A stretch of DNA of 31,713 nt, from positions 1 to 31,713 of IMG/VR virus record IMGVR_UViG_3300020430_000061; one strand, written 5' to 3'. Below the pieces are notes generated by a model that searched no databases, was not told the origin of the DNA, and saw only the letters and a list, made by a program, of their open reading frames with translations. Of the stretch, positions 3,179-31,278 are shown one piece after another. Every line of letters begins with the position of its first letter. Position 1 is the first letter of the stretch. A program made the translations under genes and the position numbers. Source of the DNA: a virus.

Positions 3179-4421
3179 CAATATGATATTTTTTATTGGT
3201 GTGGTTGAGGATCGTAAAGATCCTAAAAGCCAAGGTCGTCTTCGTGTACGTATTTATGGAGATCATGATGCCGATAAAGTAAAAATTCCAACTGAATCTT
3301 TGCCTTGGTCGCAAGTTATGATGCCAGTTACTTCAGCTTCTTGCGCTGGTATTGGTCAATCAGCAACAGGTATTGTTGAGGGATCATGGGTTGTTGGTTT
3401 CTATATGGACGGAGAATCAAAGCAGAATCCTATGATTATGGGAACACTGCCAGGTGAAGCAGGTCCAAGTGGAAGACCTGATGCTGGTTTTGCTGATCCA
3501 GCTGGTATTAACCCAGTAAGAACAGAAGGCCCTGATACACCTTACAACGCTACAGCAAGATATTATAAAGAACACGCTTCAACAAAAGATAAAGTTAATT
3601 TAAGAAAAGAAGGTGTTGAAGTTGCTATTCCACAAAAAGTTTCAAGTGTAGTAGAAAACGAGGCAGACTCTTATTATGAAAGAACTACTTGGGATATGCC
3701 CAAGCCTTTTAAAGATATAAGACCAAAGTATCCGTATAATAAAGTAATTGAAACAGAAGGTGGTCATGTCTTTGAGGTTGATGATACACCAGGTAATGAA
3801 AGAGTAAGCACATATCATACTTCTGGTACAAATGAAGAATATATGGCTAATGGTGATAAAACAGTTACGGTTGTAGGTTCTACCTATAAAGCCATTTATG
3901 GCAGTGACTATGTTTATATTAAAGGTAGTGCTAATATTACAGTTGATGGAGATATGAGACAGCTTGTAAAAGGTAACTATCATTTAGAAGTTGAAGGAAA
4001 TAAAACGGAAGCTGTTCACGGATCTCGTCAAAGTAAAATTAAAAATTCTGAACATATCGAAATTGGACAAGACTTTGGCTCTAATGTAAACGAAAATTAT
4101 GTACAAAGGATTGGTGGAGACGAAACAAGAATTGTTGACCTTAAAAGAAATACCACAATTGGTCAAACCGAAGATCTTACAGTAAAACAAGAAACTAGTT
4201 TTATTGTTATGGATAAGTTAAATATTTTTGCGTTAAAAGATTATTCAACTACCACGGCTGGCCAACTTAAAATAACATCAAAAGGTAATATTACAGTCGA
4301 AACACCAGCAAGTATGACCACGAATGTAGAAACTGATGTGACTACAAATGTTGAAGGCAACTTAACTGATAATGTTGTAGGCAATGTTGATGTTAATGCG
4401 ACAAGGATTGATCTAAACTAA
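3168..4421 (+). CDS. 5: Tail spike (cell-puncturing) protein, T4 gp5-like, without a lysozyme domain
   Basis: This is a 417-residue protein. Residues about 5-100 form an OB-fold-like domain (IGVVEDRKDPKSQGRLRVRI, a central P-W, then a GSWVVGFYMDGESKQNPMIMG strand pair). This matches the gp5 N-terminal domain, which sits on gp27. After a linker, residues about 200-417 are short alternating beta repeats rich in V/I/T/N/G (such as GDKTVTVVGS, GSANITVDGD, VEGNLTDNVVGNVDVN), the triple-stranded beta-helix needle. T4 gp5 (about 576 residues) has a T4-lysozyme domain between these parts; here the linker is too short and shows no lysozyme motif. The following PAAR-peptidase gene may supply the missing enzyme. 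The end overlaps the next start (TAATG). Confidence 0.85.
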   Translation: MSLNNMIFFIGVVEDRKDPKSQGRLRVRIYGDHDADKVKIPTESLPWSQVMMPVTSASCAGIGQSATGIVEGSWVVGFYMDGESKQNPMIMGTLPGEAGPSGRPDAGFADPAGINPVRTEGPDTPYNATARYYKEHASTKDKVNLRKEGVEVAIPQKVSSVVENEADSYYERTTWDMPKPFKDIRPKYPYNKVIETEGGHVFEVDDTPGNERVSTYHTSGTNEEYMANGDKTVTVVGSTYKAIYGSDYVYIKGSANITVDGDMRQLVKGNYHLEVEGNKTEAVHGSRQSKIKNSEHIEIGQDFGSNVNENYVQRIGGDETRIVDLKRNTTIGQTEDLTVKQETSFIVMDKLNIFALKDYSTTTAGQLKITSKGNITVETPASMTTNVETDVTTNVEGNLTDNVVGNVDVNATRIDLN

Positions 4422-5416
4422 TGGGTAAGTTAGCAATAAGACAAGGTGATTCATTAACTACAGGACATCTTTGTGCCACAACAACTACGCTTGCTCCACC
4501 AGGTCAAGGCGATGTTTATATTGAAGGAGCCTTAGTATCAAGAAGAGGTGATCCGACAGTATCGCATCCATTTCCTCCGGTTCCAGCTTGTCTTCCTCAT
4601 GTCGCATCAGTTGGACATGGATCGCCAAATGTTTATGTGCATGGTCAAAAAGTTGGATATATTACTGGCCCAGCAGATGCAGGATCTATGATAAGTGCAA
4701 ATGGTACAGTTCGAGTTGCAACAAATGCTGAAGCTGTAGCCCTTTTATTAAATATTGAAGTGTTTGAACCAGTTATCGACACAACAGTATTTCCAACGAT
4801 TGAAGCTTTTGCCACAGAGGTAATTGAAGGAAGAGAAACTGAAGAGGCTGCTGGAGAAGATCCAGAAACTTTTGAAGCTATTGAATATGGAGATGGCGGT
4901 ATTTCAAGTGCAAGGTATAATAATACTAGCCCAGTAAATAATGTAAGTGGCGCACAAGATACACCGGCTGTTACAACTGGTCAATCGGATAGTCCTGACC
5001 CTGATGCAAGTGGAACACCTGGATTAAATTTTTTACCGCATACCGATCCAAGAATTAAAACACAGCTAAAAAATATTTTACAAAGCGTAGCATCAACATT
5101 AGGTGTTACCCTTGATATTACGTCAGCATATCGTTCACCAGCATATAACGCTTCTGTTGGTGGAGCCAAAACAAGTCAGCATATGTTAGGTAATGCATGT
5201 GATATTGTTCAAACAGGTTGGTCAGATTCTCAAAGAGCAAACTTTATTACTACATGCTATAATGCTGGAATTCGTGGATTTGGTGTATATAATGGCTTTA
5301 CACACGTTGACATTGGTAATAAAAGAGCTTGGGGTAATACAGGTTCTCGGACATCATTACCAAGATATCCGTGGGCGCAATCCGCACTTAGTCCTTTTGG
5401 ATATGCGACATCATAG
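4421..5416 (+). CDS. PAAR spike-tip protein fused to an M15-type peptidoglycan peptidase
   Basis: This is a 331-residue protein in three parts. Residues 1-95 are a PAAR domain (IRQGDSLTTGHLC, VYIEGALVSRRGDP, HGSPNVYVHGQKVG), the cone that caps gp5-type needles. Residues 105-205 are an acidic, Gly/Ser/Thr-rich linker. Residues about 206-305 look like a peptidase M15 (D-Ala-D-Ala carboxypeptidase / endolysin type): YRSP with Arg238, SQHMLGNACDI giving zinc ligands His254 and Asp261, and THVDIG giving His295. The whole zinc motif S-x-H-x-x-G-x-A-x-D-I is present. In T4 the PAAR protein gp5.4 is a small separate protein and the wall-cutting enzyme is inside gp5. The fusion suggests the tip itself opens the peptidoglycan. 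Confidence 0.85.
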   Translation: MGKLAIRQGDSLTTGHLCATTTTLAPPGQGDVYIEGALVSRRGDPTVSHPFPPVPACLPHVASVGHGSPNVYVHGQKVGYITGPADAGSMISANGTVRVATNAEAVALLLNIEVFEPVIDTTVFPTIEAFATEVIEGRETEEAAGEDPETFEAIEYGDGGISSARYNNTSPVNNVSGAQDTPAVTTGQSDSPDPDASGTPGLNFLPHTDPRIKTQLKNILQSVASTLGVTLDITSAYRSPAYNASVGGAKTSQHMLGNACDIVQTGWSDSQRANFITTCYNAGIRGFGVYNGFTHVDIGNKRAWGNTGSRTSLPRYPWAQSALSPFGYATS

Positions 5417-16523: not shown

Positions 16524-16729
16524 TGAAAAGAGTGAATATACAAGACAGACCAGGACTTCAAAGAGATATTTCCAGTGGTGCTGTAATAAATACTGATAAT
16601 ACCGCTTATGCAAAGGCTTTAAAAGCTCAGGAACTGGCAAAGGCAAAACAAAATGAGATCGAAGATCTCAAACAAGATGTAAAAGAGTTGAAACAACTTA
16701 TGCAAACGATTATTGAGAGGCTTAACTAA
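16523..16729 (+). CDS. Small coiled-coil virion-associated protein
   Basis: This 68-residue protein has a polar N-terminus (VNIQDRPGLQRDISSGAVIN). Residues about 28-66 are a single long helix rich in Lys, Glu, Gln, Ala and Leu with heptad spacing (IEDLKQDVKELKQLMQTI), a short coiled coil. Stop/start TAATG overlaps link it to both the DUF4815-type gene and the following fibre-like gene. Short proteins of this build are common in tail regions of T4-like cyanophages and probably help trimerise or join fibre parts. The function is not known. A similar-sized coiled-coil gene lies at 30568-30783, past the minus-strand block. Confidence 0.8.
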   Translation: MKRVNIQDRPGLQRDISSGAVINTDNTAYAKALKAQELAKAKQNEIEDLKQDVKELKQLMQTIIERLN

Positions 16730-17907
16730 TGGCTGCTATTAATGTACCTGTAACTGATACTTTCGAAAACTGGAGAACCAAAACCAATGACATTTCGACG
16801 TTGGTAGGTGACGGTGGCCAACTTTCAAATGCATATACGGCTAATAACATCATTGGTGTACTTAACGAAATTAAAAGTACTGCCACATTTGATAATGTTA
16901 TAACAATTAACGACCAAGCAACTGATGGAACTACCGAATTAGCTGGTAATGCAGCTAGTATGATTATTAGTACTGGTGCTCAAACAGTTCTTACCATGAA
17001 TCAAACTGGTGACCTTAGTGTACATGCCGATTTGACTACTGGTGGAGTGGCTAATGTTGGTACACAATTAAACGTTACTGGTAATACCATCATTGGTGGT
17101 ACTACTATTTCTCAGCAGTTACTTACCACAAACGGCGGCCTGGATTGTAATGGCAATGCCGATGTATCAGGTACACTAGACGTAAGTGGTGCCACAAGTT
17201 TGGCTGATACACTTGCGGTAACTGGTAATACCACGGTAGGTGGAACACTTACTGTGACAGGTACTACTACTCTAAATAGTACACTTGATATGCAAAATAA
17301 TAATATCAATAGCGTTGGTACTCTTGGAATTACTAATGCAAATGTGGGAACTCTATCAGTTAATAATAATACCACACTTGGTGACGCAACCAGCGACAAT
17401 GTAACATTTAATGCAAGAGTAAATAGTGCATTGAATCCAGATTCTGATAATTCACGTACACTTGGTACTTCATCTTTAAGGTGGTCAACTGTTCACGGTG
17501 TTACCTTCTCGGGTACAGCAACTACCGCAAACTATGCTGACTTGGCTGAGCTTTATCTTTCTGATTTTGCATATGAAGCTGGTACAGTGGTAAGAGTCGG
17601 TGGTGAGTTCGAGGTAACAGCTACTGATGGTGAACATAACCACTCAGTACTTGGAGTAGTATCGGCTTATCCTGCATATCTTATGAACAATCAGTTGGAA
17701 AACGGTTTGCCAATCGCACTGAAAGGCCGAGTACCTGTAAAGGTAAAAGGTTCAGTCAATAAGGGTGATCGCTTAGTGGGTGGGCCAGAAGGGCACGGAA
17801 TCGCTGATAACGATTCACCTCACGGATTTGCGATTGCGCTTGAAGACTTTGTTGCGAAGAAATCTGGCCAAGGTAGATACGGCGTAGTAGAAGCCGTAGT
17901 GCTCTGA
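16729..17907 (+). CDS. Tail-fibre-like structural protein
   Basis: This is a 392-residue protein. After an N-terminal segment (VPVTDTFENWRTKTNDISTL) that resembles virion-attachment ends of marine phage fibres, residues about 90-240 are a series of short V/T/G/N repeats (DVSGTLDVSGATSLADTLAV, TVGGTLTVTGTTTLNSTL), expected for a trimeric beta-structured shaft. Residues about 265-392 form a globular end (TANYADLAELYLSDFAYEAG, DGEHNHSVLGVVSAYPAYLM, ALKGRVPVKVKGSVNKGDRL) known from many phage fibres. I do not see a catalytic S74-type chaperone. It is the last plus-strand gene before the minus-strand block; the two stop codons are 4 bases apart. Confidence 0.85.
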   Translation: MAAINVPVTDTFENWRTKTNDISTLVGDGGQLSNAYTANNIIGVLNEIKSTATFDNVITINDQATDGTTELAGNAASMIISTGAQTVLTMNQTGDLSVHADLTTGGVANVGTQLNVTGNTIIGGTTISQQLLTTNGGLDCNGNADVSGTLDVSGATSLADTLAVTGNTTVGGTLTVTGTTTLNSTLDMQNNNINSVGTLGITNANVGTLSVNNNTTLGDATSDNVTFNARVNSALNPDSDNSRTLGTSSLRWSTVHGVTFSGTATTANYADLAELYLSDFAYEAGTVVRVGGEFEVTATDGEHNHSVLGVVSAYPAYLMNNQLENGLPIALKGRVPVKVKGSVNKGDRLVGGPEGHGIADNDSPHGFAIALEDFVAKKSGQGRYGVVEAVVL

Positions 17908-17911
17908 TAAA

Positions 17912-18439
17912 TTATTCATCACTATAAAGATACATGTCAAATGCTGCTGATACCCGGAGCATATTAACGGGTCTTACACTGTGGTATAAGAAACTAGGGA
18001 ATACTAATAGGTCACCCTGTTCTGGCTGATAAACCAGGTTATCAAACAAAGGTCTAAATTTCATATCATATCCACGGGATGCAAAGTTTCTTGGATCTTG
18101 AAATACGATCTCTCCACCCAAGCCGCTTTCAATAATGGCAATTGCACTTAAATGAGAACCTGCATGTGTGTGCATTTCCATACCAACGTGCTCTTTGTCA
18201 TATTTGTTAATCCATGACTTGACTTGATAGTGATGCCAATCAGACGTTTCCTTATCAAGACTTTGTTCTAGGTGATGTTCAAATCCCTCAAGGACTTGTT
18301 CATACAAATCATCTGTAATTTCATTGAACCCCATAGCCTGGTGAACAATATCATCTGTAATTTCAATATTTGATTTAGTCACTAAAGTCGGAAACAGAAA
18401 ATTCGTTCCCCAGTTCAGCGTCATAGTATCTTCTAACAT
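17912..18439 (-). CDS. 2OG-Fe(II) oxygenase (2OG-FeII_Oxy_5-like)
   Basis: This 175-residue protein is the last gene of the minus-strand block. The core pattern is that of the small phage/marine oxygenase family PF13759: MEMHTHAGSHLSAIAII (His90, His92, His96), then GGEIVFQDPR, then QPEQGDLLVFPSFLYHSVRP with distal His153, and LRVSAAFDMY with Arg162 for 2-oxoglutarate. Such enzymes hydroxylate or otherwise oxidise protein or small-molecule substrates using iron, oxygen and 2-oxoglutarate. The start could also be ATG 18424 (MTLNWGTNFLFPTLV), which would cut the overlap with the upstream gene from 65 to 50 bases. Family members are frequent in T4-like cyanophages, usually without known substrate. 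Confidence 0.88.
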   Translation of the reverse strand: MLEDTMTLNWGTNFLFPTLVTKSNIEITDDIVHQAMGFNEITDDLYEQVLEGFEHHLEQSLDKETSDWHHYQVKSWINKYDKEHVGMEMHTHAGSHLSAIAIIESGLGGEIVFQDPRNFASRGYDMKFRPLFDNLVYQPEQGDLLVFPSFLYHSVRPVNMLRVSAAFDMYLYSDE

Positions 18440-18803
18440 CTGGTACCATCCCTTTCATAGCGAGTTTGCCGCCATTATTAGCGCACACAACTCCAATTAT
18501 TTCATTATACGTATTACTATCTTTCCTATATGGAACAAAGTAATTATCCAATGGAAGAAGCTCGGAATCATTTAGAACATCATAAAAATTTTCATCATAG
18601 TCTTCCATAATCCAAAATGCATAGCAAATTGCTACCATATACGATTTGGCTGGATAGATCCAACCAACATCTTTTTCTCTAAAATATCTTATTGCATTGT
18701 TAACAATATCGTCCGATTCTTCAATGGTAACCCATTTCAAATCATCAGAGTGATTGCGATTTAGTTTGTGATATAGTTGTTGTTTAACTTTCCACTCTTG
18801 CAT
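18375..18803 (-). CDS. Unassigned 142-residue cassette protein
   Basis: I do not recognise a family. The protein starts at ATG 18803 with GGAG 7 bases upstream, inside the end of the radical SAM gene (20-base overlap). It is acidic and rich in Tyr, Trp and Asp. Residues about 30-65 look helical (DDIVNNAIRYFREKDVGWIY, then YMVAICYAFWIMEDY), followed by FYDVLNDSELLPLDNYFVPY, a turn-rich segment. No signal peptide, metal motif or transmembrane helix is evident; the AICYAFWIM stretch is too short. Its place between a radical SAM gene and an oxygenase gene, coupled to both, suggests a partner, carrier or substrate-recognition protein, but that is guesswork. Confidence 0.8.
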   Translation of the reverse strand: MQEWKVKQQLYHKLNRNHSDDLKWVTIEESDDIVNNAIRYFREKDVGWIYPAKSYMVAICYAFWIMEDYDENFYDVLNDSELLPLDNYFVPYRKDSNTYNEIIGVVCANNGGKLAMKGMVPDVRRYYDAELGNEFSVSDFSD

Positions 18804-19686
18804 ACCACTCCAATAGTCCTCTATACCCGTTGCATGAATTTTTTAGATCTTCTACATATCTATAATGTTCTGTCAGGCAACTTCCATACCAAGGACATTC
18901 AAGACAAATTTCAGATAACGCATCTTTTTCAGCTCGGCACCAATCAATATACTTATCATAGTCGTCTAGTTCTAAGAAATATTCTTTATCCCAATTATCA
19001 AATTCTAATACAGCAAAGTTACCATTGGGTGTAATATAAATGTGATCATCAGAAAAAGCATTATATTGACCATAATAAGAATCGATAAGACGTTCTATAT
19101 TTTGAAATTGAAAGTTCTTTTTGACTGGACTTGTAATCCATTTAATAACAAACTCTTCAAAGTCCTTATGTGTTACATTATCGGCATTTGCCTGGTTAAT
19201 TGAGTATGGTTTAATCTCAACAGACATTACCTGGTTACACATATTGAGTTGTTGAATCATTTCGTCCACATTCATTTCCAATACTTTCTTAGATGCCAAG
19301 ATAAGTACGGCAATAGGCTTAGGACTCATTAACATATTATTGAATACTAGGTCGGACTTTTCTCTTGCTGAAAAATCATATGAGACGGAAAGAGTGATTC
19401 CATCGTCGAAGAATCGCTCGTCAAGCATAGAGAAATTAGTATTAATGTTGATAGGACCACTATACCAGCGGCGAATAACTTCGATAATTTCATTATAATA
19501 ATCCTTTTTCAGTGCACCAATCTCTCCACCATATAGATCTACATGGTCAATCTTTGGTACTTCACTTAATAAGAAATCCAACCTTTCAGGAGAAATCTTT
19601 TTTTGATCACCTAATTGTTCTGGTGTAAGATAGCAGAAGTCACAACGAAAGTTACAAAAGTATGATGGATTGATTGATATGTTCAT
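18784..19686 (-). CDS. Radical SAM protein with short C-terminal Cys cluster
   Basis: This is a 300-residue protein. The [4Fe-4S]-SAM motif C-x3-C-x2-C is at Cys11, Cys15 and Cys18 (NPSYFCNFRCDFCYL), and the SAM-contacting GGE is at residues 53-55. The C-terminal region has Cys250, Cys261, Cys264, Cys270 and Cys285 (CLECPWYGSC), a reduced version of the SPASM/twitch auxiliary cluster region; it lacks the first half seen in the other proteins of the block. Radical SAM enzymes with such ends usually act on peptides. It starts in an ATGA overlap with the preceding radical SAM gene, so the two are probably made in equal amounts and may form a pair. Confidence 0.88.
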   Translation of the reverse strand: MNISINPSYFCNFRCDFCYLTPEQLGDQKKISPERLDFLLSEVPKIDHVDLYGGEIGALKKDYYNEIIEVIRRWYSGPININTNFSMLDERFFDDGITLSVSYDFSAREKSDLVFNNMLMSPKPIAVLILASKKVLEMNVDEMIQQLNMCNQVMSVEIKPYSINQANADNVTHKDFEEFVIKWITSPVKKNFQFQNIERLIDSYYGQYNAFSDDHIYITPNGNFAVLEFDNWDKEYFLELDDYDKYIDWCRAEKDALSEICLECPWYGSCLTEHYRYVEDLKNSCNGYRGLLEWYARVES

Positions 19687-20714
19687 ATTGATTCATTTAC
19701 GTACGGTGTCATTTGCATGTCTAAACCGTTCGCCTCTAAGATCTTTGGGCCAAGTTGTTTCATATGATAGCAATGATCTTCTACCATATCATGTTCTTTT
19801 AGGTCTTTAATTGTTTTCTTACAGCCATTACAAATACTAAACATAGGACAGGAATAGCATCCCATCTTTAAACTATTTAGTTCAGGAGAATCAGCCAATG
19901 GTGTAACAAAGCCACCTTTCATTTCAAAGTCAAAGTCAATAGCCTTATCTTTATCATCACCAAAGGCTCCACAAGAATAATAATCACCTTCTGGTTGTAT
20001 GGTTCTAATATTACTGTCACACGTACGCGTAAGCGGGCAGATAGTATTCTCACCACGAATACGTTTCATCATTTGCTGAGTGTTATGTTCCCAAGGAGCT
20101 AAACCAGCTTCCCAGATTTTAATATATTGTTCGTATATCTTGGATAGTCTATACGGAGCATCCTGTTCACCAGATGCCATAGCATAGTTTACCTTACAAA
20201 CCACATCCATTTCTTTTGCAAGTTCAACTGTTTTAATTACACTCCACTCATTTTCCTCAGTGATTACTGCAATAAAGGAAGGTCTATATCCAACATAGTA
20301 TAACATATAGTCAGAACAAACTGTAAAGTCCTGTTCAGTAAATACTGAATAGTCGCCTTTTAATCGGCCTTCACCATACTGAAATGATGTGGCCACACCA
20401 ACACGGCGATGTCTAAAAAGCTTTATCCATTTCTGTGGATTTTTATAGAATGGCCAAAGGTTAGTTGTAAGAGATATTGTGGCAGGCAAATCATTATCAT
20501 CAAGGTACTTAATAATTTCCCAATAGTATTGTGGGTCCATCATTAACGGATCACCACCATTTACAATAATGGTCTTTGTCTCTGGATACCTATCCAAAAA
20601 CTGAAAGATCTTCATAAGGTCGAGCTTAGCCGCTTTATCCTCAACTAACTTAGTTGACGAACAAAAGGTGCATTTGAAATTGCACAACTCTGTCGGCTTA
20701 ATTATTAGGTCCAT
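19683..20714 (-). CDS. Radical SAM/SPASM protein
   Basis: This is a 343-residue protein. The radical SAM motif is at Cys11, Cys15 and Cys18 (KPTELCNFKCTFCSS). GGDP at residues 53-56 replaces the usual GGEP. A C-terminal SPASM-like set is visible at Cys226, Cys232, Cys248, Cys286, Cys289, Cys295, Cys298 and Cys315, enough for two auxiliary iron-sulfur clusters. SPASM proteins generate an adenosyl radical and mostly modify peptides (thioether or carbon-carbon links, epimerisation) or mature sulfatases. The length fits the family. It starts in a TAATG overlap with the upstream oxygenase gene and ends in ATGA with the next radical SAM gene. Confidence 0.92.
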   Translation of the reverse strand: MDLIIKPTELCNFKCTFCSSTKLVEDKAAKLDLMKIFQFLDRYPETKTIIVNGGDPLMMDPQYYWEIIKYLDDNDLPATISLTTNLWPFYKNPQKWIKLFRHRRVGVATSFQYGEGRLKGDYSVFTEQDFTVCSDYMLYYVGYRPSFIAVITEENEWSVIKTVELAKEMDVVCKVNYAMASGEQDAPYRLSKIYEQYIKIWEAGLAPWEHNTQQMMKRIRGENTICPLTRTCDSNIRTIQPEGDYYSCGAFGDDKDKAIDFDFEMKGGFVTPLADSPELNSLKMGCYSCPMFSICNGCKKTIKDLKEHDMVEDHCYHMKQLGPKILEANGLDMQMTPYVNESI

Positions 20715-21274
20715 TAAAATAATGCAGGTACTAAGTACTCAAAGCTTAATACTCGTCTCACTCCACTTTTATGTGTTGCCCGATGTTGGAAACACTTCTT
20801 TTGATTTAACCATACAAAATCTCTACGTGACGGATAGAGAATATTAATATAATCGTTACTTGCTACCTGAATATTATTACCATTTTCTTCGGTATTATCA
20901 TCCATATAGACTAAAATATTAGAATTGAATGCGTCACCATCTTCAAAATCATTATGCCAATTCCTTGATCCTTCGTCTACACCAGACCACATGGCACAGT
21001 CTTTCATTTCAAAGTCATCAAACATTTTTGATACGTAGTTATCAGCAAACCATTGATGGATTCGGCTAAGATCAGACTTTGCCTTAGGATCTAACCATAT
21101 CTCTTCTGGTTGATTACAATCTTTGAAATCGAATGATTCAAACATTTCGATGTCGAGGTCATCAGGCAAAGTACCTAACCAATAACCATCGACAAAGAAT
21201 GTTTGTTCAGGAGTCATTTGGTCTTGAGTATCCGTATCTATACGTACAATCTTCTGTATATTCTGTGTCTCCAA
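20714..21274 (-). CDS. 2OG-Fe(II) oxygenase (prolyl-hydroxylase-like)
   Basis: The protein has 186 residues from a TTG at 21274. The jelly-roll core is clear: NWHNDFEDGDAFNSNILVYM gives the iron ligands His107 and Asp109, CFQHRATHKSGVRRVLSFEY gives distal His164 and the 2-oxoglutarate-binding Arg173/174. The start is uncertain: TTG 21274 has AAGGAG 9 bases upstream, whereas ATG 21217 (MTPEQTFFVDGYWLG) has no good site but gives a shorter overlap with the preceding gene. The frame is open to 21292. It resembles the oxygenase at 21493-21996 in its W-H-x-D-F/T-E-D core and R-R-V-x-S-F end, so the two may be paralogues acting on related substrates. Confidence 0.85.
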   Translation of the reverse strand: METQNIQKIVRIDTDTQDQMTPEQTFFVDGYWLGTLPDDLDIEMFESFDFKDCNQPEEIWLDPKAKSDLSRIHQWFADNYVSKMFDDFEMKDCAMWSGVDEGSRNWHNDFEDGDAFNSNILVYMDDNTEENGNNIQVASNDYINILYPSRRDFVWLNQKKCFQHRATHKSGVRRVLSFEYLVPALF

Positions 21275-21509
21275 TTGCTTCCACTCCTTCAATTTCGCAT
21301 ATGAGTCTATTACACTCTCGTATTTCTTCCTTAACCATATTTGAGTATGGCTCTAAGTTTTGGATCATATCGGCATATTGATTATACTTGAACTCATCGC
21401 CTTGATGGTCATGCATCTTAGTAATCCAAAGGTTATATAATTCAGCGGTCAAATCTCTTTCTTTACAAAGAGTCTTTTTTCTTTCAACGACCTCAGATAT
21501 TGTAGTCAA
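21207..21509 (-). CDS. Small unassigned helical protein between two oxygenases
   Basis: This 100-residue protein starts at TTG 21509, preceded by a very strong ribosome-binding site (AAAGGAGGG, 10-base spacer) inside the end of the upstream oxygenase gene. Residues about 1-75 look like two long helices rich in Glu, Lys, Met and Asn (VVERKKTLCKERDLTAELYN, then MIQNLEPYSNMVKEEIRECN). The tail is Tyr/Asp/Thr-rich with a third region YTEDCTYRYGYSRP. Five cysteines are scattered, without a known metal motif. No family is recognised. Its overlaps with both flanking oxygenase genes support a real, co-translated gene; it could bind a substrate or bridge the two enzymes, but this is not shown. Confidence 0.68.
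   Translation of the reverse strand: MTTISEVVERKKTLCKERDLTAELYNLWITKMHDHQGDEFKYNQYADMIQNLEPYSNMVKEEIRECNRLICEIEGVEAIGDTEYTEDCTYRYGYSRPNDS
21284..21289 (-). promoter_or_regulatory. Ribosome-binding site for a possible TTG start at 21274
   Basis: AAGGAG on the minus strand with a 9-base spacer to TTG 21272-21274. It is the only good site near the start of the oxygenase gene. Confidence 0.45.
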
Positions 21510-21996
21510 AACTTGCTACCCTCCTTTGAATCTTTGTATCTTCGGCTCTATGCCAGAATCCACGTTCATTAGAGATTAGAAATAGGTCACCTTTCTTTGG
21601 CTGATAACTTGCTTCACAGTCACCATCCCATTTGAAATTGATAGACCCACCAGTCTCTTCGGCAGTATCATCAAAATAGTATAGGAAGAAAATATCATAG
21701 TCTTCAAAAGTATCGGTATGCCAACCCTGATTATCTTTATCAACTCCATCCCATACTAAGAACTTATTAAAGCTAGCCTCTGGCCAATTTGGCTTAACAT
21801 ATTCCTGTTCTAAATAATAACCAAAGAGTCTCATCTTATTGGTTAATTGAACATCAACATCCTTTTCACCGTTATCTCTTGCTCTTTCTTCTGTGTTTAA
21901 TAAACGGTGATCATCTAATCTTACTAAGTCTAAGCCTGCAGGAACATTACCGATATAGGCATATCCTACCTCTTTCAGTTTCTCTTTTAACGTCAT
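21493..21996 (-). CDS. 2OG-Fe(II) oxygenase (prolyl-hydroxylase-like)
   Basis: This 167-residue protein starts at ATG 21996 in an ATGA overlap with the B12-type radical SAM gene, with AGGAG 7 bases upstream. The catalytic set is complete: GWHTDTFEDYDIFFLYYFDD supplies His93 and Asp95, GFWHRAED supplies His149, and QRRVASFDYN supplies Arg158/159. A KKGDLFLISNE strand precedes the distal His, as in many hydroxylases of this fold. It would use iron, oxygen and 2-oxoglutarate to hydroxylate or desaturate a substrate, possibly the product of the neighbouring radical SAM enzymes. No signal peptide, so it acts in the host cytoplasm. Confidence 0.9.
   Translation of the reverse strand: MTLKEKLKEVGYAYIGNVPAGLDLVRLDDHRLLNTEERARDNGEKDVDVQLTNKMRLFGYYLEQEYVKPNWPEASFNKFLVWDGVDKDNQGWHTDTFEDYDIFFLYYFDDTAEETGGSINFKWDGDCEASYQPKKGDLFLISNERGFWHRAEDTKIQRRVASFDYNI
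21518..21527 (-). promoter_or_regulatory. Strong ribosome-binding site for a TTG start
   Basis: AAAGGAGGGT on the minus strand, with 10 bases between its GGAGG core and TTG 21507-21509. No ATG occurs before residue 32 of the frame, so this site fixes the start. Confidence 0.6.
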
Positions 21997-23672
21997 GCAA
22001 GTCTCCTAAATAATTCACTGATCAGTATTGGGCGGTTCTTTTCTAAGAACTCCTCAATTGTGTCAACTCTAAATTTACCACCAAGCTGCCTAATAGACCT
22101 AGGTGGAGTGGATGGACAGAATATATCTTCGATCTCAGTATATATCCCCTCCCAACCATCTAGATTAATTATAACACAAAAACACTCTTTTGTAAACCCC
22201 TGAGGTGAAATTATTTCATCAAAAATTGGATAAATGTTCTTTAACAAATAATTAGCCGCGTTGTTCATAAAATACATCTGGTGCATCTCATGGTGAGTAA
22301 AAGAGTTGCAAGACCTAATGGTATGGAAATAAGTCTTCTTATTTTTATATAGGCTATTCCAATTGTCTGTGCCGTCTTCATCTACGATATCAGAATAGAC
22401 TTCGACTGTTTCAATGTTGTGTAACATTTTATAGTCAGCTGAATTTAGTCGTGAATCGGGTAAGAACATATAGTCGTGTCTAAATGATCCCCATGCTTTG
22501 AAGTTGTTAATGATCTCCATTTCATTATAGAAATCTTCCAAGGTAGAACCTGGCATGGCTAGGATAAGTTCAAGAGCTGGGATCGGAAAGCCATGTTCTT
22601 TACATCGTTGATTGATATACCTACTCAGTTCCAGTTTGTTTTCAGTTGATAGATCCACTCTATCAGCCAGTTTCATAGCTTCTTCACTAATACTTTGAAT
22701 GGAAACCGTTGGAACTACCGATACATATTCAGTTTCGCCCCACATATCTAAGCCACCTTTACCTTCACCAGACTTAGGTGCCCTTGCATCTTTACCAACA
22801 ATATCAAACCAACGGTCAATTAGTCGTTTACGTCTTTTAATATCTTTAGACTTCATGGTAGAGATATCGGTAAGATTGAAACCATTTTCCCAACCAAAGG
22901 CGAAGATCTCTAGGTCACGATCTTCAAAGGCTCCAAAGTTAGCATCAGTTAAATATGCATCACGGTATCCAGCGGCTTTCATAGCTAGAATATCACGTTT
23001 AACGATCTCAATATCCTTTTTATAGATCTTGGTATTAATACCACCACCCCACTCGCAGAATACACATTTGTATGGACAGCCTCTTGTTGTTTCGATAACA
23101 ATAAAAGGTTCCATATTGTTTTGTCTAGCATAGTCAACTGATTCTTTTAGATAATCCTGGTGTTCTTCGTATATAGAATAATCTTCGGTAGACAGGTCAT
23201 GGATGCGTCCAGTACCATTACGAAGTTCCCATGCAATACTTTTTGGATCTAGTCGATTCTCAATATAACAATCGATTAGGTCTTCCATAAAAGGCTCACC
23301 TGGTTTTGTAGGCTCACAAATATAATCGTAATATTTTCGACCTCTTAAAAGGTCTGGATCATTTGTACCAATATGAGGTCCACCAAGTACTAGGATCTTT
23401 TCGGGATATTGTGACTTGATATGTTTTGCGATGCCATCCACAATTGTATAGTTCCAGGCATAGGAACTGAACATGATGACATCAGCAGATTTAATTTCTG
23501 CGATGACGTCATCGTATGACTCGTATTGGTTCCATTTGTATGGAGCCGGGATAAATTCGACTTGGTCTGCATAGCGGCCTCGGTGCTTATAGTGACTTTG
23601 AATTAACAAATAGGTCACATTGTTCGCTAGTGACCAGTCAGCGTGTGGTGGGTTTATAAATGCTATCCGCAT
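21993..23672 (-). CDS. B12-binding-domain radical SAM protein
   Basis: The protein has 559 residues from ATG 23672 (MRIAFINPPHADWSL); an upstream ATG at 23702 would add 10 residues. Residues 1-130 look like the Rossmann-type B12-binding domain of class B radical SAM methyltransferases (MRIAFINPP, ADVIMFSSYAWNY, KILVLGGPHIGTND). The radical SAM motif C-x3-C-x2-C is at Cys199, Cys203 and Cys206 (TTRGCPYKCVFCEWGG). Further conserved parts are DAYLTDANFG and LELILAMPGSTLEDF. Such enzymes often methylate unreactive carbons of peptides, sugars or lipids, but some do ring chemistry. Cobalamin would have to come from the host. The C-terminal 200 residues are not assignable. Confidence 0.88.
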   Translation of the reverse strand: MRIAFINPPHADWSLANNVTYLLIQSHYKHRGRYADQVEFIPAPYKWNQYESYDDVIAEIKSADVIMFSSYAWNYTIVDGIAKHIKSQYPEKILVLGGPHIGTNDPDLLRGRKYYDYICEPTKPGEPFMEDLIDCYIENRLDPKSIAWELRNGTGRIHDLSTEDYSIYEEHQDYLKESVDYARQNNMEPFIVIETTRGCPYKCVFCEWGGGINTKIYKKDIEIVKRDILAMKAAGYRDAYLTDANFGAFEDRDLEIFAFGWENGFNLTDISTMKSKDIKRRKRLIDRWFDIVGKDARAPKSGEGKGGLDMWGETEYVSVVPTVSIQSISEEAMKLADRVDLSTENKLELSRYINQRCKEHGFPIPALELILAMPGSTLEDFYNEMEIINNFKAWGSFRHDYMFLPDSRLNSADYKMLHNIETVEVYSDIVDEDGTDNWNSLYKNKKTYFHTIRSCNSFTHHEMHQMYFMNNAANYLLKNIYPIFDEIISPQGFTKECFCVIINLDGWEGIYTEIEDIFCPSTPPRSIRQLGGKFRVDTIEEFLEKNRPILISELFRRLA

Positions 23673-24657
23673 ATCTAAAAGTCGCCTTAAAAACGCATTC
23701 ATCCATATCTTGTTCTATATGTTTATAGTCCTCTTTAATAAAACAAGATAGCGGGCAGCGTTGAAAGTATTCACATTCAAAACAGTTATATTTGCCGAGA
23801 AAATTCTCAACGATTTGTGGACCACCTAGTTCTTCAGTTTGAGCATCTTTCAAGAACACAGAACCAGAACAACCCTGAGGTTTAGCACCATCAGGCATGA
23901 TAGTTAACGAGTTGCCCCTTGTACATATCATTTTGTTTGCTGGTTTGTCATTTACGAAATGATCAATATTCAAACATCTAGGATATTTATTCACCAACAC
24001 CTTATAGAATTCAAATAATTCTTTTTCACTTGGCATTAAAATTCTTGAGGTAGCTACACTTGGTAAGAAGTGATCAAAGTCACAGGTATAGTTAGTGTAT
24101 AGATCTTCAAAGAGCTGATCATTAGCAATAATACGATCTATGTTTTGTTTGGTTGCTACAATAGAAACCATTTCAATATGATCTTGGAAATAGATTATAT
24201 TGCGTGTAAATATTTCTAAATCTGATTTACTAAACCGGCCGGCGGGATCATAGCTAATCGAAACTTTCAAATCATTACGATCTAGGAAGTCCATTACTGG
24301 TTTACGGTTTTCAAATACCAGATTTGTAATAAAATTAAAGTGAATGTCTGACTTTGTTTGGATGTCAATAAGAGATATAAGGTCTTCATAGTGTTTAAGA
24401 AAACCTTGGTCAATCCACCGATCTTGAAATAGCTCACCACCCATAAGATGAATCTTATAGGCCTGTTGACGCGGGTTATTATTAATCCAATTTACAATTG
24501 GACTTACCTTCTCCATGATTTCATCATAGGAGGCGCCAAGAATAGAGTTATGGTCTTGTGGGCAGAATGCGCATTTTAGATTACAATGTTCAAATAAGCA
24601 AACAACTATCTCACCATAACGAACTACTTTAGTATCAATCAAGTCATAGATATTCAT
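23638..24657 (-). CDS. Radical SAM/SPASM protein
   Basis: This is a 339-residue protein. The radical SAM motif is at Cys25, Cys29 and Cys32 (FEHCNLKCAFCPQ), and GGE is at residues 73-75. The C-terminal auxiliary-cluster region has Cys245, Cys263, Cys292, Cys295, Cys301, Cys305 and Cys321 (CFECEYFQRCPLSC), a SPASM layout. The extended N-terminus of about 20 residues before the motif differs from the other three small radical SAM proteins, whose motif starts at residue 11-16. It starts in a TAATG overlap with the unknown gene upstream and ends inside the B12-type radical SAM gene. A peptide substrate is likely for the family. Confidence 0.92.
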   Translation of the reverse strand: MNIYDLIDTKVVRYGEIVVCLFEHCNLKCAFCPQDHNSILGASYDEIMEKVSPIVNWINNNPRQQAYKIHLMGGELFQDRWIDQGFLKHYEDLISLIDIQTKSDIHFNFITNLVFENRKPVMDFLDRNDLKVSISYDPAGRFSKSDLEIFTRNIIYFQDHIEMVSIVATKQNIDRIIANDQLFEDLYTNYTCDFDHFLPSVATSRILMPSEKELFEFYKVLVNKYPRCLNIDHFVNDKPANKMICTRGNSLTIMPDGAKPQGCSGSVFLKDAQTEELGGPQIVENFLGKYNCFECEYFQRCPLSCFIKEDYKHIEQDMDECVFKATFRYADSIYKPTTR

Positions 24658-25793
24658 TACATCACTGCGTATTGCTCTCTAAATTCCTTTTTGCCGTCAA
24701 GTAATCCTTGTACGAAATAGTTATTTACTGTCTCAAGGTCAATTGAGAAGAAAGAACCAGCGGCATGTTCATAGGTAGCTTCTACCTCTAGGATAGTATC
24801 CAATTCCTTATCGGTAATCTCACCAGCCGATACAGCTTTTACAAAGTCTAGCTTTGAGACATCAGACTTTACAAATTCGTATACGCTTTCCTCTTGCCAA
24901 CATGCACCAGCCAACTTAGTAAATTTTTGGAATGACTTGATATGTTTGTCGGTGATTGCATCAAAGTTTACATTCTTACCAGAGGATGCAATATTCATAT
25001 ACGGTGACTTCCAAATATTCTTATCTAAGAACAGCTTTGGAAACTCAGACTTGTCTTCTAAAATCTCATTATAGTTGGTAAAGTCATATGTCTTTTCCAG
25101 ACCCAGAGTTTCGGTAAACCTTTGAGTAAGTAAATGAGCAAAGAAGATTTCTTTTAATTCATACAGATACTTTTCTAAATCTTTCTTCAATAGGATCTTC
25201 ATTACATTTTTCAGCTCTTTTTTCATCTTACCATTTGTAAGATAGGTAGCCAAAAGATATTCAAAGCTCAGAGCAGCTTTGTTTTCGGTAATGAATTGTT
25301 TGCGTCTGGCAGCCGTTGGTTTATTGGCGCCATTAAAGATCTTTTTGAATCCACTAATATCGATTGAGTGCTGACCAAGACCAGCATTACCAGAGAATCG
25401 ACCTTGGTTGAATACCTCATATTTGAATACCATTGACTCAAGTAAGTCAACACAAGCATCGGCATTTGGCTTGGCAAAGATAAGTTTAAACCAAAGAGCC
25501 ATTATGACTTTGAATGCTTTGCTATCACAATAAACAACTACTCGTTTACCGGTAGCATCGGTATGATCTCCAAGCTTATCAAACATGTCCATGGTGTCCA
25601 TGTAAGGTAATTCTTTAGAACCAATTAGGTTTTTGACTTCTTTTGCATGTGCTAATAACGTACCTGGCTGCATATCTTGTGCAGCTGGTTCATAAAACTC
25701 ATAGCCATGTTCAGCCGAAATAACAACACGGTCAAATGATACATCAATAATATGGTCTGTTGCTACGTAAACCTTCTTAAACAGATGTAGCAT
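24657..25793 (-). CDS. Unassigned 378-residue cassette protein
   Basis: The start is ATG 25793 (MLHLFKKVYVATDHIIDVSF), with AGGAG 7 bases upstream; the frame is open to 25829 but lacks a site there. I recognise no family. The N-terminal 110 residues are mixed alpha/beta, including EHGYEFYEPAAQDMQPGTLL and GKRVVVYCDSKAFKVIMALW. The middle is helical and Lys-rich (KMKKELKNVMKILLKKDLEK), and the C-terminal 100 residues look helical. No signal peptide, metal motif or nucleotide-binding loop is seen. It lies between the other unknown gene and a SPASM radical SAM gene, coupled to both, and could be a scaffold or substrate-binding protein. Confidence 0.85.
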   Translation of the reverse strand: MLHLFKKVYVATDHIIDVSFDRVVISAEHGYEFYEPAAQDMQPGTLLAHAKEVKNLIGSKELPYMDTMDMFDKLGDHTDATGKRVVVYCDSKAFKVIMALWFKLIFAKPNADACVDLLESMVFKYEVFNQGRFSGNAGLGQHSIDISGFKKIFNGANKPTAARRKQFITENKAALSFEYLLATYLTNGKMKKELKNVMKILLKKDLEKYLYELKEIFFAHLLTQRFTETLGLEKTYDFTNYNEILEDKSEFPKLFLDKNIWKSPYMNIASSGKNVNFDAITDKHIKSFQKFTKLAGACWQEESVYEFVKSDVSKLDFVKAVSAGEITDKELDTILEVEATYEHAAGSFFSIDLETVNNYFVQGLLDGKKEFREQYAVM

Positions 25794-26448
25794 TTTCTTT
25801 CTCCTGTAATTTACCAGTGGCAATACCACTCGTTAATAGAAACATGGGATTGTTTTCATTTGCCCAGTAACTATATAGATTATTTCCTTTAAACATATAG
25901 TCATTAAAATATGACTTATAATATACTTTGTGCTCTGGAATAACTCTTCCATAGAACATAAAGAATTTCTCCTGGTCTAAAAGAGATACAAAATTGACAC
26001 CCGTTAAATCTTTAGTATCATCTTCTGGATATGACATAACATAATCTTTTATGGTAGGTGAATCCACGGTGTAAAGATTATATAGTGTAAGTGCATCTAA
26101 TTTTTTAGTCCACTCTTTTAGAATGTCGACATTAGCATCAATAAACTCTTTTTCGGTTAGTTCAGCCAAGCCTTTCATCTGAAGAAGCAAATTAATAACA
26201 CGATCTTTTAGAATTGGAATGTTTACGATAAAGTTTGCTTCAAGATAATGCTTGGTCATTTCATCAAAGGCTTCTTGAGTGGTAAACCCAATATCACATG
26301 GAATTTCTAAGTTCCCTAGATAGGTGAGTAGCTTTGATCCTTGAAGGGTAGACTCTTCGTAATGAATCAGGTAAAATGTGTCTTTATCATTAAAGAATAA
26401 TTTAAGCTCCTCCAATTCGATAGGAGCGGTCGTCTCAATAACATTCAT
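25777..26448 (-). CDS. Unassigned protein coupled to the Cys-His-x-Ser-tailed protein
   Basis: This 223-residue protein starts at ATG 26448, whose A is the last base of the TAA stop of the tailed protein gene (TAATG). The two are therefore likely made together. No family is recognised. It is acidic and rich in aromatic residues. The N-terminal half alternates strands and helices (LKLFFNDKDTFYLIHYEEST, FIVNIPILKDRVINLLLQMK), and the C-terminal part is Tyr/Phe-rich (YYKSYFNDYMFKGNNLYSYW). No signal peptide or metal motif. Direct coupling to the candidate substrate makes a chaperone, leader-binding or partner role worth considering, but only position supports this. Confidence 0.82.
   Translation of the reverse strand: MNVIETTAPIELEELKLFFNDKDTFYLIHYEESTLQGSKLLTYLGNLEIPCDIGFTTQEAFDEMTKHYLEANFIVNIPILKDRVINLLLQMKGLAELTEKEFIDANVDILKEWTKKLDALTLYNLYTVDSPTIKDYVMSYPEDDTKDLTGVNFVSLLDQEKFFMFYGRVIPEHKVYYKSYFNDYMFKGNNLYSYWANENNPMFLLTSGIATGKLQEKENATSV
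25801..25805 (-). promoter_or_regulatory. Ribosome-binding site deciding the start at 25793
   Basis: AGGAG on the minus strand with a 7-base spacer to ATG 25791-25793. It places the start 12 codons inside the longest open frame. Confidence 0.65.
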
Positions 26449-27029
26449 TATCTTCTTCCTCTGGAACTATGGCAAGAGCTATGACATGATGCATGGCAAG
26501 TGTTTAGAGTAACTGTTGTAGTCGTTCCTCTTGCTGCATTATATAAGTCTCTCAATTGAGCAAATTTTTGTTCTAAATGAGAATCATCGATCATTGTATA
26601 TGATCCACTTCCCAATACAATAGAACCGTTATATACAGAGTTTTGACGATATGAAGTACTCATATATGCAATTGCAGTATTATCGTAAATAATACCAGGT
26701 GATGGTTGTGAACCAGTGTTACCTCCACCGCCAGTAATATTATGACGAGCTCTTAAACTACGAATTGAGCTATAATTAAATGTTTCGTTTTCAATTGCTG
26801 TTTCTAGTCCACCGCCAGTAATTAACTCACCGCTATTTTTTAAAGATGCACCTGTAATTCCAAGTGATCTGCCGCCTGTGGTTCCGCCAAAATAGCTAGG
26901 CCAGTCGCCATGTGAAAATGGGTGAGCATTAGATCCCCATGAAATACCAGTGTTTGCAGCTGGTGGCACATAGTCAGCAAATCGATTTACAATGTTTTGG
27001 TCTTCGACCGGATTAGTTAGTGTTGCCAT
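26448..27029 (-). CDS. Cys-His-x-Ser-tailed protein, candidate modification substrate
   Basis: This is a 193-residue protein. The N-terminal 145 residues are rich in Gly, Ser, Thr, Asn and Tyr (GISWGSNAHPFSHGDWPSYF, GGTTGGRSLGITGASLKNSG, NITGGGGNTGSQPSPGIIYD), resembling phage structural proteins more than a short leader. Residues about 148-166 are probably helical (SHLEQKFAQLRDLYNAARG), followed by a TTTTVTLNT strand. The end, residues 178-193, is CHASCHSSCHSSRGRR: three Cys-His-x-Ser units and a basic tail. All three cysteines are here. It overlaps a SPASM radical SAM gene upstream by 17 bases and an unknown gene downstream, inside a block of radical SAM and oxygenase genes. I infer it is a substrate; a metal-binding virion protein is the alternative. 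Confidence 0.85.
   Translation of the reverse strand: MATLTNPVEDQNIVNRFADYVPPAANTGISWGSNAHPFSHGDWPSYFGGTTGGRSLGITGASLKNSGELITGGGLETAIENETFNYSSIRSLRARHNITGGGGNTGSQPSPGIIYDNTAIAYMSTSYRQNSVYNGSIVLGSGSYTMIDDSHLEQKFAQLRDLYNAARGTTTTVTLNTCHASCHSSCHSSRGRR
26463..26498 (-). repeat. Three tandem Cys-His-x-Ser codon units
   Basis: Twelve codons encode CHAS, CHSS and CHSS in residues 178-189 of the tailed protein. Cys uses TGC and TGT, and Ser uses TCA, AGC, TCT, AGT and TCC. The mixed codons show the repeat is kept at protein level rather than being a fresh DNA duplication. Confidence 0.9.
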
Positions 27030-28047
27030 ATTTCTCGTCCAATTCTTTCATTAAAAATCTTGGCGCGCCACATATATCATCTTCCCAAGCCAATTGGTGG
27101 CAGTCGCCTTTACAGTATTTATACACTTTGCACTCGTAACATCGTGGATCTCTTTGCAATTCTTCCATGATAACATTACAGCGTTTTGGCGAATTGATAA
27201 CCAATTCTGGCGGTTCCATAATATGTCCAAAAGCACTTGTTGGAGCCGAATTTGGACATCCGGCTATCCCACCGTCAGCATTTATAGTGAATAGCTTTTG
27301 TTCACAGTCACGGCAAAATGTACCGGCGCCGGTATAGCCAGTTTCAAATTTGGTGTATATGTTTTCCATAAACTCATTATCAAACCAACTGCGAGCTCCA
27401 GTTGATTCCATAAAGTGATGCATATCTAAGAAATAGTTTTGTAGGTCTAGGTTAGATGGAAAGACTGGATTGCGAGTGGCATTACCATCATGAGTAATAC
27501 GTTCAAGGGCCATTTCTTGTACACCTAAATCTCTGACATATCTTAATAGCTTTTCAGGACCCATTTGAATAGTATCACTTGTAAGTGATACAAACAACTT
27601 AATAGTATAACCTCTTTGTAATAATAATTTGACATTTGATTCAAATAGATCTCTTTGTTTCTCATTATCAAATCGAATGGTTGGATCCCATGAGGTACCA
27701 ATACGTTTGTTGCATACACTATCTAAAAAGTCTAATCGTTTTTCGGTAAGTTTAAGAACCAGGTTAGTGGTGATACCATAAGTAGCATCATCACCCCACT
27801 TTTCCTGCGTTAATTCATAGAATCTCATCATATCATTAACAGGCGCAAGAAAAGGCTCACCACCGTGATACTCAAAATGAGTGGTCATTGTTGGATGAAG
27901 TTCTTTTAATTCATTACACCACTTGGCTACAGCATCAGGATTAAAATAAATCTTGGCTCCATTGATACCATTTGTAAAGCAGTGGTCACAGTTTAGATTA
28001 CATGTCTCCGTCGTTTTGACGTAGATCATAGTGTCATTTTTAATCAT
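27013..28047 (-). CDS. Radical SAM/SPASM protein next to the candidate substrate
   Basis: This is a 344-residue protein. The radical SAM motif is at Cys16, Cys20 and Cys23 (TTETCNLNCDHCFTNG) and GGEP at residues 62-65. The C-terminal SPASM set is Cys245, Cys248, Cys264, Cys303, Cys306, Cys312, Cys316 and Cys326 (GTFCRDCEQKLFTINADGG, RCYECKVYKYCKGDCHQ), matching the anaerobic-sulfatase-maturase / peptide-modifying group in layout. The start overlaps the cupin-like gene (ATGA); ATG at residue 7 is an alternative. Its stop lies 17 bases inside the Cys-His-x-Ser protein gene. This adjacency makes it the first candidate to act on that protein. Confidence 0.93.
   Translation of the reverse strand: MIKNDTMIYVKTTETCNLNCDHCFTNGINGAKIYFNPDAVAKWCNELKELHPTMTTHFEYHGGEPFLAPVNDMMRFYELTQEKWGDDATYGITTNLVLKLTEKRLDFLDSVCNKRIGTSWDPTIRFDNEKQRDLFESNVKLLLQRGYTIKLFVSLTSDTIQMGPEKLLRYVRDLGVQEMALERITHDGNATRNPVFPSNLDLQNYFLDMHHFMESTGARSWFDNEFMENIYTKFETGYTGAGTFCRDCEQKLFTINADGGIAGCPNSAPTSAFGHIMEPPELVINSPKRCNVIMEELQRDPRCYECKVYKYCKGDCHQLAWEDDICGAPRFLMKELDEKYGNTN
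27116..27123 (-). promoter_or_regulatory. Internal late promoter box (TATAAATA) before the tailed-protein gene
   Basis: A perfect TATAAATA on the minus strand lies inside the SPASM radical SAM gene, 87 bases before the start at 27029. It is the only exact match on that strand that I found in the block. It overlaps Val-Tyr-Lys-Tyr codons, so chance is possible. Confidence 0.45.
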
Positions 28048-28448
28048 TCAATTCCTATTGATAACATAATAGATGGTTCAATATTCATAGCATGGTGAGG
28101 TGTATTTGCTGGGATCTTAATATAACTACCTTCTTCAATAATAGTTATCTCGCCATCAATCATCATAGTTTTGGATCCTTCTAAAACGTATATAAATACA
28201 TCTATAGGATCTGTATGATCCGGAAACGAAATGCCGAAAGGAGGTGAGATATAACAATGAACCGTATGTTTATCCGTTATGCCGAGCTTTTGCACAATAT
28301 GTTCAAACTCATGTTCAAGCCCTTCTACCTTGACGACGTTTCGCTCCTCAGCGATATGTCTGCCGATAGAAAGTACAGGGATTACGTGATCGCGCCCAGC
28401 ACTATCAATAAAACAAGCTTTTGAACCTTTATGCAAAATATCGAGCAA
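28044..28448 (-). CDS. Cupin / JmjC-like protein, first gene of the minus-strand block
   Basis: The protein has 134 residues from TTG 28448. A cupin core is visible: HCYISPPFGISFPDHTDPID, VFIYVLEGSKTMMIDGE, then EEGSYIKIPANTPHHAMN. His78 and Asp80 (H-x-D) with His118 or His119 form an iron-binding triad of the kind used by JmjC-type 2-oxoglutarate hydroxylases; the 'ISPP-G-x-x-x-P-H-x-D' arrangement recalls bacterial ribosomal-protein hydroxylases such as YcfD. A simple metal-binding cupin is the alternative. No ATG occurs near the start; the frame is open further up to 28475 and reads plausibly, so a rare ATT start at 28472 cannot be excluded. It overlaps the SPASM gene by ATGA. Confidence 0.8.
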   Translation of the reverse strand: MLDILHKGSKACFIDSAGRDHVIPVLSIGRHIAEERNVVKVEGLEHEFEHIVQKLGITDKHTVHCYISPPFGISFPDHTDPIDVFIYVLEGSKTMMIDGEITIIEEGSYIKIPANTPHHAMNIEPSIMLSIGIE

Positions 28449-30786: not shown

Positions 30787-31278
30787 ATGGGAACTGTAGT
30801 TCAGTTTAAGAGATCGACTACGGCAAATGCGAAACCACAAGCCAGTGATTTAACGGCCGGTGAAATTGCCATAAACACTAATGATGGTAAATTGTTCCTT
30901 GAAAAGGATAATGGCTCGGTAGTCGAAATTGCATTTGGTGACAATGAACTTATCCTTGATGATTCGGTTATTACCACAGCCACTCTTACGACTACAAACA
31001 ATAATGCAAACCAAGTTGTCGATTCATTCGCGGCAGCTACATTTCGATGTGTCAAATATCTTATTCAAGTAACATCTGGTACTGATTTCCAGGTGTCTGA
31101 AATTTTATCAGTTCACGATGGTACCACAGTTTATCTTACAGAATATGCCTCAATTGCAACTAATGCAGAGTTAGCAACCTTTGATTCAGATATTAGTTCA
31201 AACAATGTAAGGCTTTTAGTTGATCCAGTTAATAATGCTACAACAATAAAAATTACACGGACTGGAGTGAAAGCATAA
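30787..31278 (+). CDS. Virion structural protein with fibre-type N-terminus
   Basis: This is a 163-residue protein. The N-terminal segment QFKRSTTANAKPQASDLTAG then EIAINTNDGKLFLEKDNGSV is the common 'L-x-x-G-E-I-A-I-N-x-x-D-G-K-L-F' module of phage fibre and tail proteins. Residues about 60-163 are a beta-rich domain (CVKYLIQVTSGTDFQVSEIL, SVHDGTTVYLTEYASIAT), typical of small receptor-side or decoration domains in marine T4-like phages. The ribosome-binding site AAGGAAG lies inside the end of the preceding gene. The stop overlaps the next start (TAATG). Confidence 0.8.
   Translation: MGTVVQFKRSTTANAKPQASDLTAGEIAINTNDGKLFLEKDNGSVVEIAFGDNELILDDSVITTATLTTTNNNANQVVDSFAAATFRCVKYLIQVTSGTDFQVSEILSVHDGTTVYLTEYASIATNAELATFDSDISSNNVRLLVDPVNNATTIKITRTGVKA

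Follow-up and report, generated by a model that had tools for sequence, protein, structure and literature searches.

Why would a phage keep, among its baseplate and tail-fibre genes, a small protein that ends in three copies of a Cys-His-x-Ser unit, and encode it in one operon with a whole set of radical SAM enzymes? The question is raised by a 31,713-nucleotide stretch of viral DNA, the whole of which is here called the window and which represents a phage baseplate and tail-fibre region. The locus probably encodes a phage maturation system, in which the 193-residue protein would be (i) a fibre- or baseplate-associated host-contact protein with a variable body, (ii) the bearer of a fixed substrate, its last 16 residues, for enzymes of the same operon, and (iii) retained at full length.

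The tailed gene has 193 codons and an ATG start, and the C-terminus of its product, CHASCHSSCHSSRGRR, lies directly before the stop codon; spelled out, the tail is C-H-A-S, C-H-S-S, C-H-S-S and R-G-R-R. A preliminary description of this DNA had reported a protein of this length whose only cysteines form a C-terminal (Cys-His-x-Ser)x3 array, and this is exact: C178, C182 and C186 are the only ones, all within the tail. From composition alone, (C,H,S)x3 is expected at any one position with a probability of ∼3e-13; the tail is not a chance occurrence. Its codons are mixed in the window (Cys TGC/TGT/TGC; Ser TCA, AGC, TCT, AGT, TCC), and in 156 distinct relatives both Cys codons and both His codons are used about equally, with Ser drawn from the TCN and the AGY boxes. 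A peptide that stays fixed despite such mixed synonymous codons is under selection at the protein level, as had been proposed from the window's codons. Searches of Pfam and NCBIfam with the window protein gave no match, its body matches no known virion family, and PDB profile searches with the putative substrate and with two functionally unannotated proteins of the operon, p20767 and u390, returned chance-level matches only. The functionally unannotated PHROGs group phrog_35144 is matched by all 54 aligned tailed-protein members (best 6.7e-11), the match of the window protein spanning its last 27 residues. The source assembly (2.03 Mb, of which the contig makes up 45,093 bases) contains no second copy of the tail pattern.

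The tailed gene shares 17 bases with the upstream radical SAM gene at its start and a single base with the downstream gene at its stop (TAATG), which places it inside an operon. This operon runs on the minus strand from 28448 to 17912 and comprises 14 genes, each overlapping its neighbour, with the tailed gene third; it is flanked by a tail fibre gene (16729-17907) and by tail-fibre assembly or fibre-like genes (28512 onwards). In operon order, with the fibre gene last, the features are:

28044-28448, minus strand: cupin (Cupin_2, weaker JmjC_2), conserved in place
27013-28047, minus strand: rSAM_A, radical SAM/SPASM protein, CxxxCxxC at 16/20/23 and many C-terminal Cys
26448-27029, minus strand: tailed protein and putative substrate, 193 aa, variable body (1-177) and invariant tail (178-193)
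26451-26498, minus strand: codons of the 16-residue tail CHxSCHxSCHxSRxRR, conserved in pattern-found and enzyme-selected loci
25777-26448, minus strand: core protein phrog_20767 (p20767), functionally unannotated, shared by both cassette types and predators
24657-25829, minus strand: core protein u390, functionally unannotated, conserved in cassettes
23638-24657, minus strand: rSAM_B, radical SAM protein, best curated match HxsB (1e-5, below cut-off)
21993-23702, minus strand: B12-binding radical SAM protein, KedN5-type C-methyltransferase matches below cut-off
21493-21996, minus strand: 2OG-Fe(II) oxygenase (PF13640)
21207-21509, minus strand: u100, small conserved protein, in some cassettes only
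20714-21292, minus strand: 2OG oxygenase-like protein (phrog_19592, common to the oxygenase at 21493-21996)
19683-20714, minus strand: rSAM_C, radical SAM protein with SPASM-type C-terminus
18784-19686, minus strand: rSAM_D, radical SAM protein
18375-18803, minus strand: u142, functionally unannotated, conserved among cassettes
17912-18439, minus strand: 2OG-Fe(II) oxygenase (PF13759, 2.6e-12)
16729-17907, plus strand: tail fibre phrog_19602, C-terminal domain like phi29 gp12 and tailspike chaperone domains

Elsewhere in the window, the baseplate region encodes a fusion of a PAAR-domain protein with an endolysin/peptidase-like domain (4421-5416), and a short protein at 30787-31278 has an N-terminus like Mtd_N (major tropism determinant) and matches long-tail-fibre families.

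Relatives of the tailed protein are not readily found by similarity: tblastn of the whole protein, of the tails and of a 258-residue form against the phage collection gave no match, likely owing to divergent bodies and low-complexity filtering, and the neighbouring genes were therefore used as queries. Through their homologues the tail was found in the jumbo phages Atu_ph07, Phosso, FLC6, FLC8, SURPRISE13 and pPa_SNUABM_DT01, in proteins of 178 to 306 residues that occupy the corresponding cassette position, end in CHxSCHxSCHxS/A-RxRR and are annotated as hypothetical in their records. In Agrobacterium phage Atu_ph07 the putative substrate is AUZ94952.1, and in Burkholderia phage FLC6 it is gp72. 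A scan of IMG/VR with a degenerate tail pattern matched at least 120 stretches; with the cultured phages and the window counted in, at least 154 ORFs end in CHxSCHxSCHxSRxRR exactly at the stop. Two pattern matches (L031 and L129) are due to chance, and L137 has no readable tail.

Since the pattern itself forces C, H and R, a second, tail-independent search was made with an alignment of rSAM_A only, yielding 79 new loci, 5 of them ending within 400 bases of the enzyme. Homologues lacking the tail beside the same enzymes had been named beforehand as a finding that would count against a modified or metal-binding tail; instead, the tail is present in the locus at 71 of the 74 untruncated loci, and two of the remaining three (L197, on the same contig as L023, and L219) have it elsewhere on the contig, the third (L176) being an 11-kb fragment. 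In this enzyme-selected set the three CH pairs and the RxRR end are invariant, and the fourth position of the unit, usually Ser, can also be Asn, Gln or Ala. The expectation that the tail is the most conserved part of the protein held, with a mean pairwise identity of 0.857 (86%) for the tail, 0.336 (34%) for the body and 0.293 (29%) for the 20 residues preceding the tail. The accompanying expectation of a variable number of units did not: every relative has three. Bodies range from ∼110 to 300 residues, and the family is represented on hundreds of phage contigs.

The association with the enzymes is equally regular. Among the matches listed, many environmental cassettes keep the gene order of the window. 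Of the distinct pattern-selected loci, 79 have 3 kb or more of sequence on one side; a radical SAM gene is present at 73 of them, and at the other six the contig ends within ∼2 kb downstream. Where 9 kb downstream is present, the median among these matches is five radical SAM genes (range 3-9), and p20767 lies within 4.5 kb downstream at 85/88 listed loci. Some phages have parts of the enzyme set several kb away from the tailed genes. Radical SAM and 2OG-Fe(II) genes occur in the same cassettes, in keeping with the link to radical SAM or oxygenase chemistry that the preliminary description had drawn from the tail itself. It is very probable, judging from this association, that the cassette enzymes modify the CHxS tail.

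What chemistry might be involved can be gauged from the enzyme families. Four SPASM-type radical SAM proteins and a B12-binding radical SAM protein are encoded in the operon, and the CxxxCxxC motif and SPASM-type C-terminal cysteines that characterise the radical SAM/SPASM superfamily are present. Members of the rSAM_A family match peptide-maturase models (PapB 27/27, DynA 26, HxsB 16, YhhB 15, CXXX-repeat maturase 5), all below threshold, and the rSAM_A profile matches the thioether-forming CteB structure 5wgg as well as sulfatase-maturase structures. The window rSAM_A scores far below the curated cut-offs of the PapB, DynA, HxsB and YhhB-type models.

Two known systems come close. The CXXX-repeat peptides and ranthipeptides (TIGR04115, PapB/PapA) likewise have period-4 Cys repeats or CX3D motifs adjoining a SPASM maturase. 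Here, in contrast, the unit is CHxS, there are exactly three, the end is RxRR, the body is large and variable, and at least four unlike maturases are encoded, in phages, with no recognised protease or exporter. The window substrate has no NCBIfam match, rSAM_A reaches 34.2 bits against a PapB cut-off of 340, and the CXXX-repeat maturase model (TIGR04115), matched by 5/27 rSAM_A members, is not among the 12 models that match the window rSAM_A at 1e-6. The His-Xaa-Ser system (HxsA/HxsB/HxsC) and the His-type triceptides (HaaB, YhhB) share the H-x-S unit; the best curated match of rSAM_B is HxsB, rSAM_C matches HxsC, and rSAM_A matches HxsB and YhhB. Unlike these systems, the tail has a Cys before every His, no HxsD match was seen, and the setting is that of phage fibres; scores also remain far below the cut-offs (HxsB 28.3 against 370 bits for rSAM_A; HxsC 26.6 against 267.9 for rSAM_C).

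SPASM enzymes form His(i)-Cbeta(i+2) cyclophanes, for example in the HaaB and YhhB products (PMC11002830), and PapB forms Cys thioethers in CX3D motifs (PMC9413430). By analogy, several radical SAM/SPASM enzymes would act on the three C-H-x-S units and introduce carbon-sulphur and/or carbon-carbon cross-links, the candidate bonds being Cys thioethers or His(i)-Ser(i+2) C-C cyclophanes. A Ser position that tolerates Asn, Gln or Ala suits a Cbeta attachment site. The 2OG-Fe(II) oxygenases, and in some phages the B12-radical SAM enzyme, may add hydroxyl or methyl groups. That the bonds are indeed cross-links is a reasonable but less secure proposition.

The surroundings of the cassette point to the tail fibre. 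In many phages a phrog_19602-type tail fibre lies directly upstream of it, and at 44 of the 68 listed loci with enough sequence the 6.5 kb preceding the tailed gene encode a tail-fibre C-terminal domain. Profile searches with this domain gave weak matches (E 0.004-0.007) to phi29 gp12 and to a tailspike chaperone. Trimeric fibres and tailspikes with chaperone domains (phi29 gp12, Dpo31, S74) offer a weak likeness to the neighbouring fibre, whereas the tailed protein itself has no chaperone domain and no fibre-family match. Longer tailed relatives share a short module with a baseplate-region protein of the window (E 5e-5, pairwise), and in L151 and its relatives a protein sharing the tailed-protein N-terminus runs into a Gly-rich phage-fibre domain (PF21722, 1.8e-10). 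Some relatives thus carry virion-type modules or a fibre-type N-terminus, and the body is no short leader, as the preliminary description had also held. From the neighbourhood, the shared module and the weak profile matches, it appears somewhat probable that the tailed protein is retained on the virion fibre and has a host-contact role. It would not be cleaved; the whole protein, its tip rigid and perhaps able to bind metal, would become part of the tail-fibre region and help to contact the host surface. Retention of the tail on the full protein is suggested by the fibre context and by the lack of recognised peptidases.

Directly ahead of the tailed ORF, and in a different frame, L013, L072 and L151-L154 encode a Gly-rich fibre-type protein of 308 residues that begins with the same ∼45 residues as the tailed proteins. 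The pair represents two genes or, by way of a frameshift, one long form.

Alternatively, the body could be an oversized leader and the tail the core peptide of a secreted RiPP-type product that acts, once cut off, as a toxin, a signal or a carrier of metal. A repeated C-terminal core motif with SPASM maturases, 2OG enzymes and a B12-radical SAM enzyme is typical RiPP anatomy, and a precursor with a conserved core does lie beside modifying enzymes, as in RiPP clusters in general. Genes for leader removal and export, however, were not recognised in the cluster: the 67 representative unlabelled cassette proteins belong mostly to 2OG-Fe(II) and radical SAM families, with one DHFR and a few weak others, and include no peptidase or transporter family, although host enzymes could fill this role. 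Bodies of the length found here, the fibre-gene neighbours in phages and predators, and the poorly conserved residues preceding the tail, which hold no conserved leader cleavage motif, also make a released peptide unlikely.

It is rather unlikely, too, that the tail binds metal without covalent modification, its three C-H pairs holding Fe, Zn or Cu at the fibre tip while the enzymes act elsewhere. His-x-His motifs bind metal in the T4 gp37 tip, and absolutely invariant Cys and His beside a more tolerant Ser position would fit such a site. This would leave the near-universal linkage to several SPASM-type maturases in an overlapping operon unexplained, and the Ser and the RxRR end are nearly or fully invariant as well.

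The tail might instead be a processing or sorting tag, through which the enzymes join the protein covalently to another virion component or cofactor. A C-terminal signal that stays the same on dissimilar bodies and finishes in a basic RxRR, usually encoded close to the functionally unannotated core proteins p20767 and u390, is what a tag could look like, but three-fold repetition is unusual for a tag and the cassette has no known conjugation enzyme, so that this reading is improbable. On another view, the radical SAM genes would serve auxiliary Fe-S metabolism and have no relation to the small tailed protein; a precedent is a T4-like genome for which 12 radical SAM genes, but no substrate, are reported (PMC5332604). 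This view is very improbable and strongly disfavoured, as searches lead from tail to enzymes and from enzymes to tail, both in unlike phages and on predator chromosomes.

The cassette also occurs in predatory bacteria. A scan of species genomes for the tail gave 12 stretches, several of them chromosome-like Bdellovibrionota contigs, and class-wide counts of genomes with the system are 5/129 and 3/143. Genes flanking the predator cassettes look cellular when their translations are read by eye (dehydrogenases, oxidase subunits, ABC and RND transporters). At four Bacteriovoracia loci a protein with a C-terminal Peptidase_S74 chaperone domain adjoins the cassette (L238:628-1920, L240:14955-16142, L241:284-1525 and L237:6654-7691); its N-terminus is that of a type-IV prepilin, recognised in three through the Pfam prepilin methylation motif and in the fourth by eye. 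No S74 neighbour was seen at the predator loci L134, L245, L246 and L247, some of which are on short contigs. Predatory Bdellovibrionota would use the same cassette, often beside fibre-like surface proteins of their own. Bdellovibrio recognises prey via S74 fibre proteins, and the text describing these mosaic adhesive trimeric (MAT) fibres does not mention radical SAM (PMC10769870). The likeness lies in phage-like S74 prey-recognition proteins in the same predator phylum; the difference is that here S74 is fused to a type-IV-prepilin-like N-terminus and adjoins the rSAM/CHxS cassette. The prepilin-S74 proteins are a possible pilus-anchored version of the predator fibre proteins.

The same four loci also carry a conserved ∼195-residue protein. 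This protein and the phage fibre C-terminus each weakly match phi29 gp12; equating the two was rejected, as profile comparison gave 8.5% probability and pairwise BLASTP was negative.

On the rSAM_A tree, three changes between phage and predator labels are needed, which implies transfer of the system between the two or repeated loss. It is quite possible that a horizontally exchanged system, common to phages and predators, gives a host-recognition protein a covalently cross-linked tip that may carry metal, with RiPP-like chemistry serving a permanent structural part rather than a free peptide.

A literature search for phage RiPP or radical SAM systems or for the motif found no description, in a literature set that included few subscription journals or preprints. 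Published accounts of FLC6 (PMC8066314), SURPRISE13 (PMC11898562) and T4-like marine genomes (PMC5332604) list such cupin, 2OG and radical SAM genes but name no substrate, and the CHxS tail supplies a candidate substrate for them. If the proposed system is real, enzymes of phages and predatory bacteria apply to a host-contact protein a chemistry familiar until now from peptide natural products, hardening or decorating it. The system would constitute a new class of virion modification and a new peptide-modifying enzyme set with a fixed 16-residue substrate, and would link phage and predator attack machinery directly at the molecular level.

The cassette also occurs in a second type, in which two tandem ∼127-residue tailed proteins are followed by several divergent CxxxCxGC radical SAM proteins; it includes a p20767 homologue and adjoins a collagen-like fibre gene. 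NCBIfam searches with the CxxxCxGC proteins gave no match, bar one weak NrdG-like match, and they are probably a new radical SAM family. The set lies downstream of the tandem proteins at L068:5361-12884, L066 and L112. Within the cassettes of Burkholderia jumbo phages, two dihydrofolate-reductase-like genes are present (L005:17931-19108 and L007:17930-19143), and the IMG/VR record 2706796094 (L033; 222,888 bases) has a cassette closely resembling those of the Burkholderia phages.
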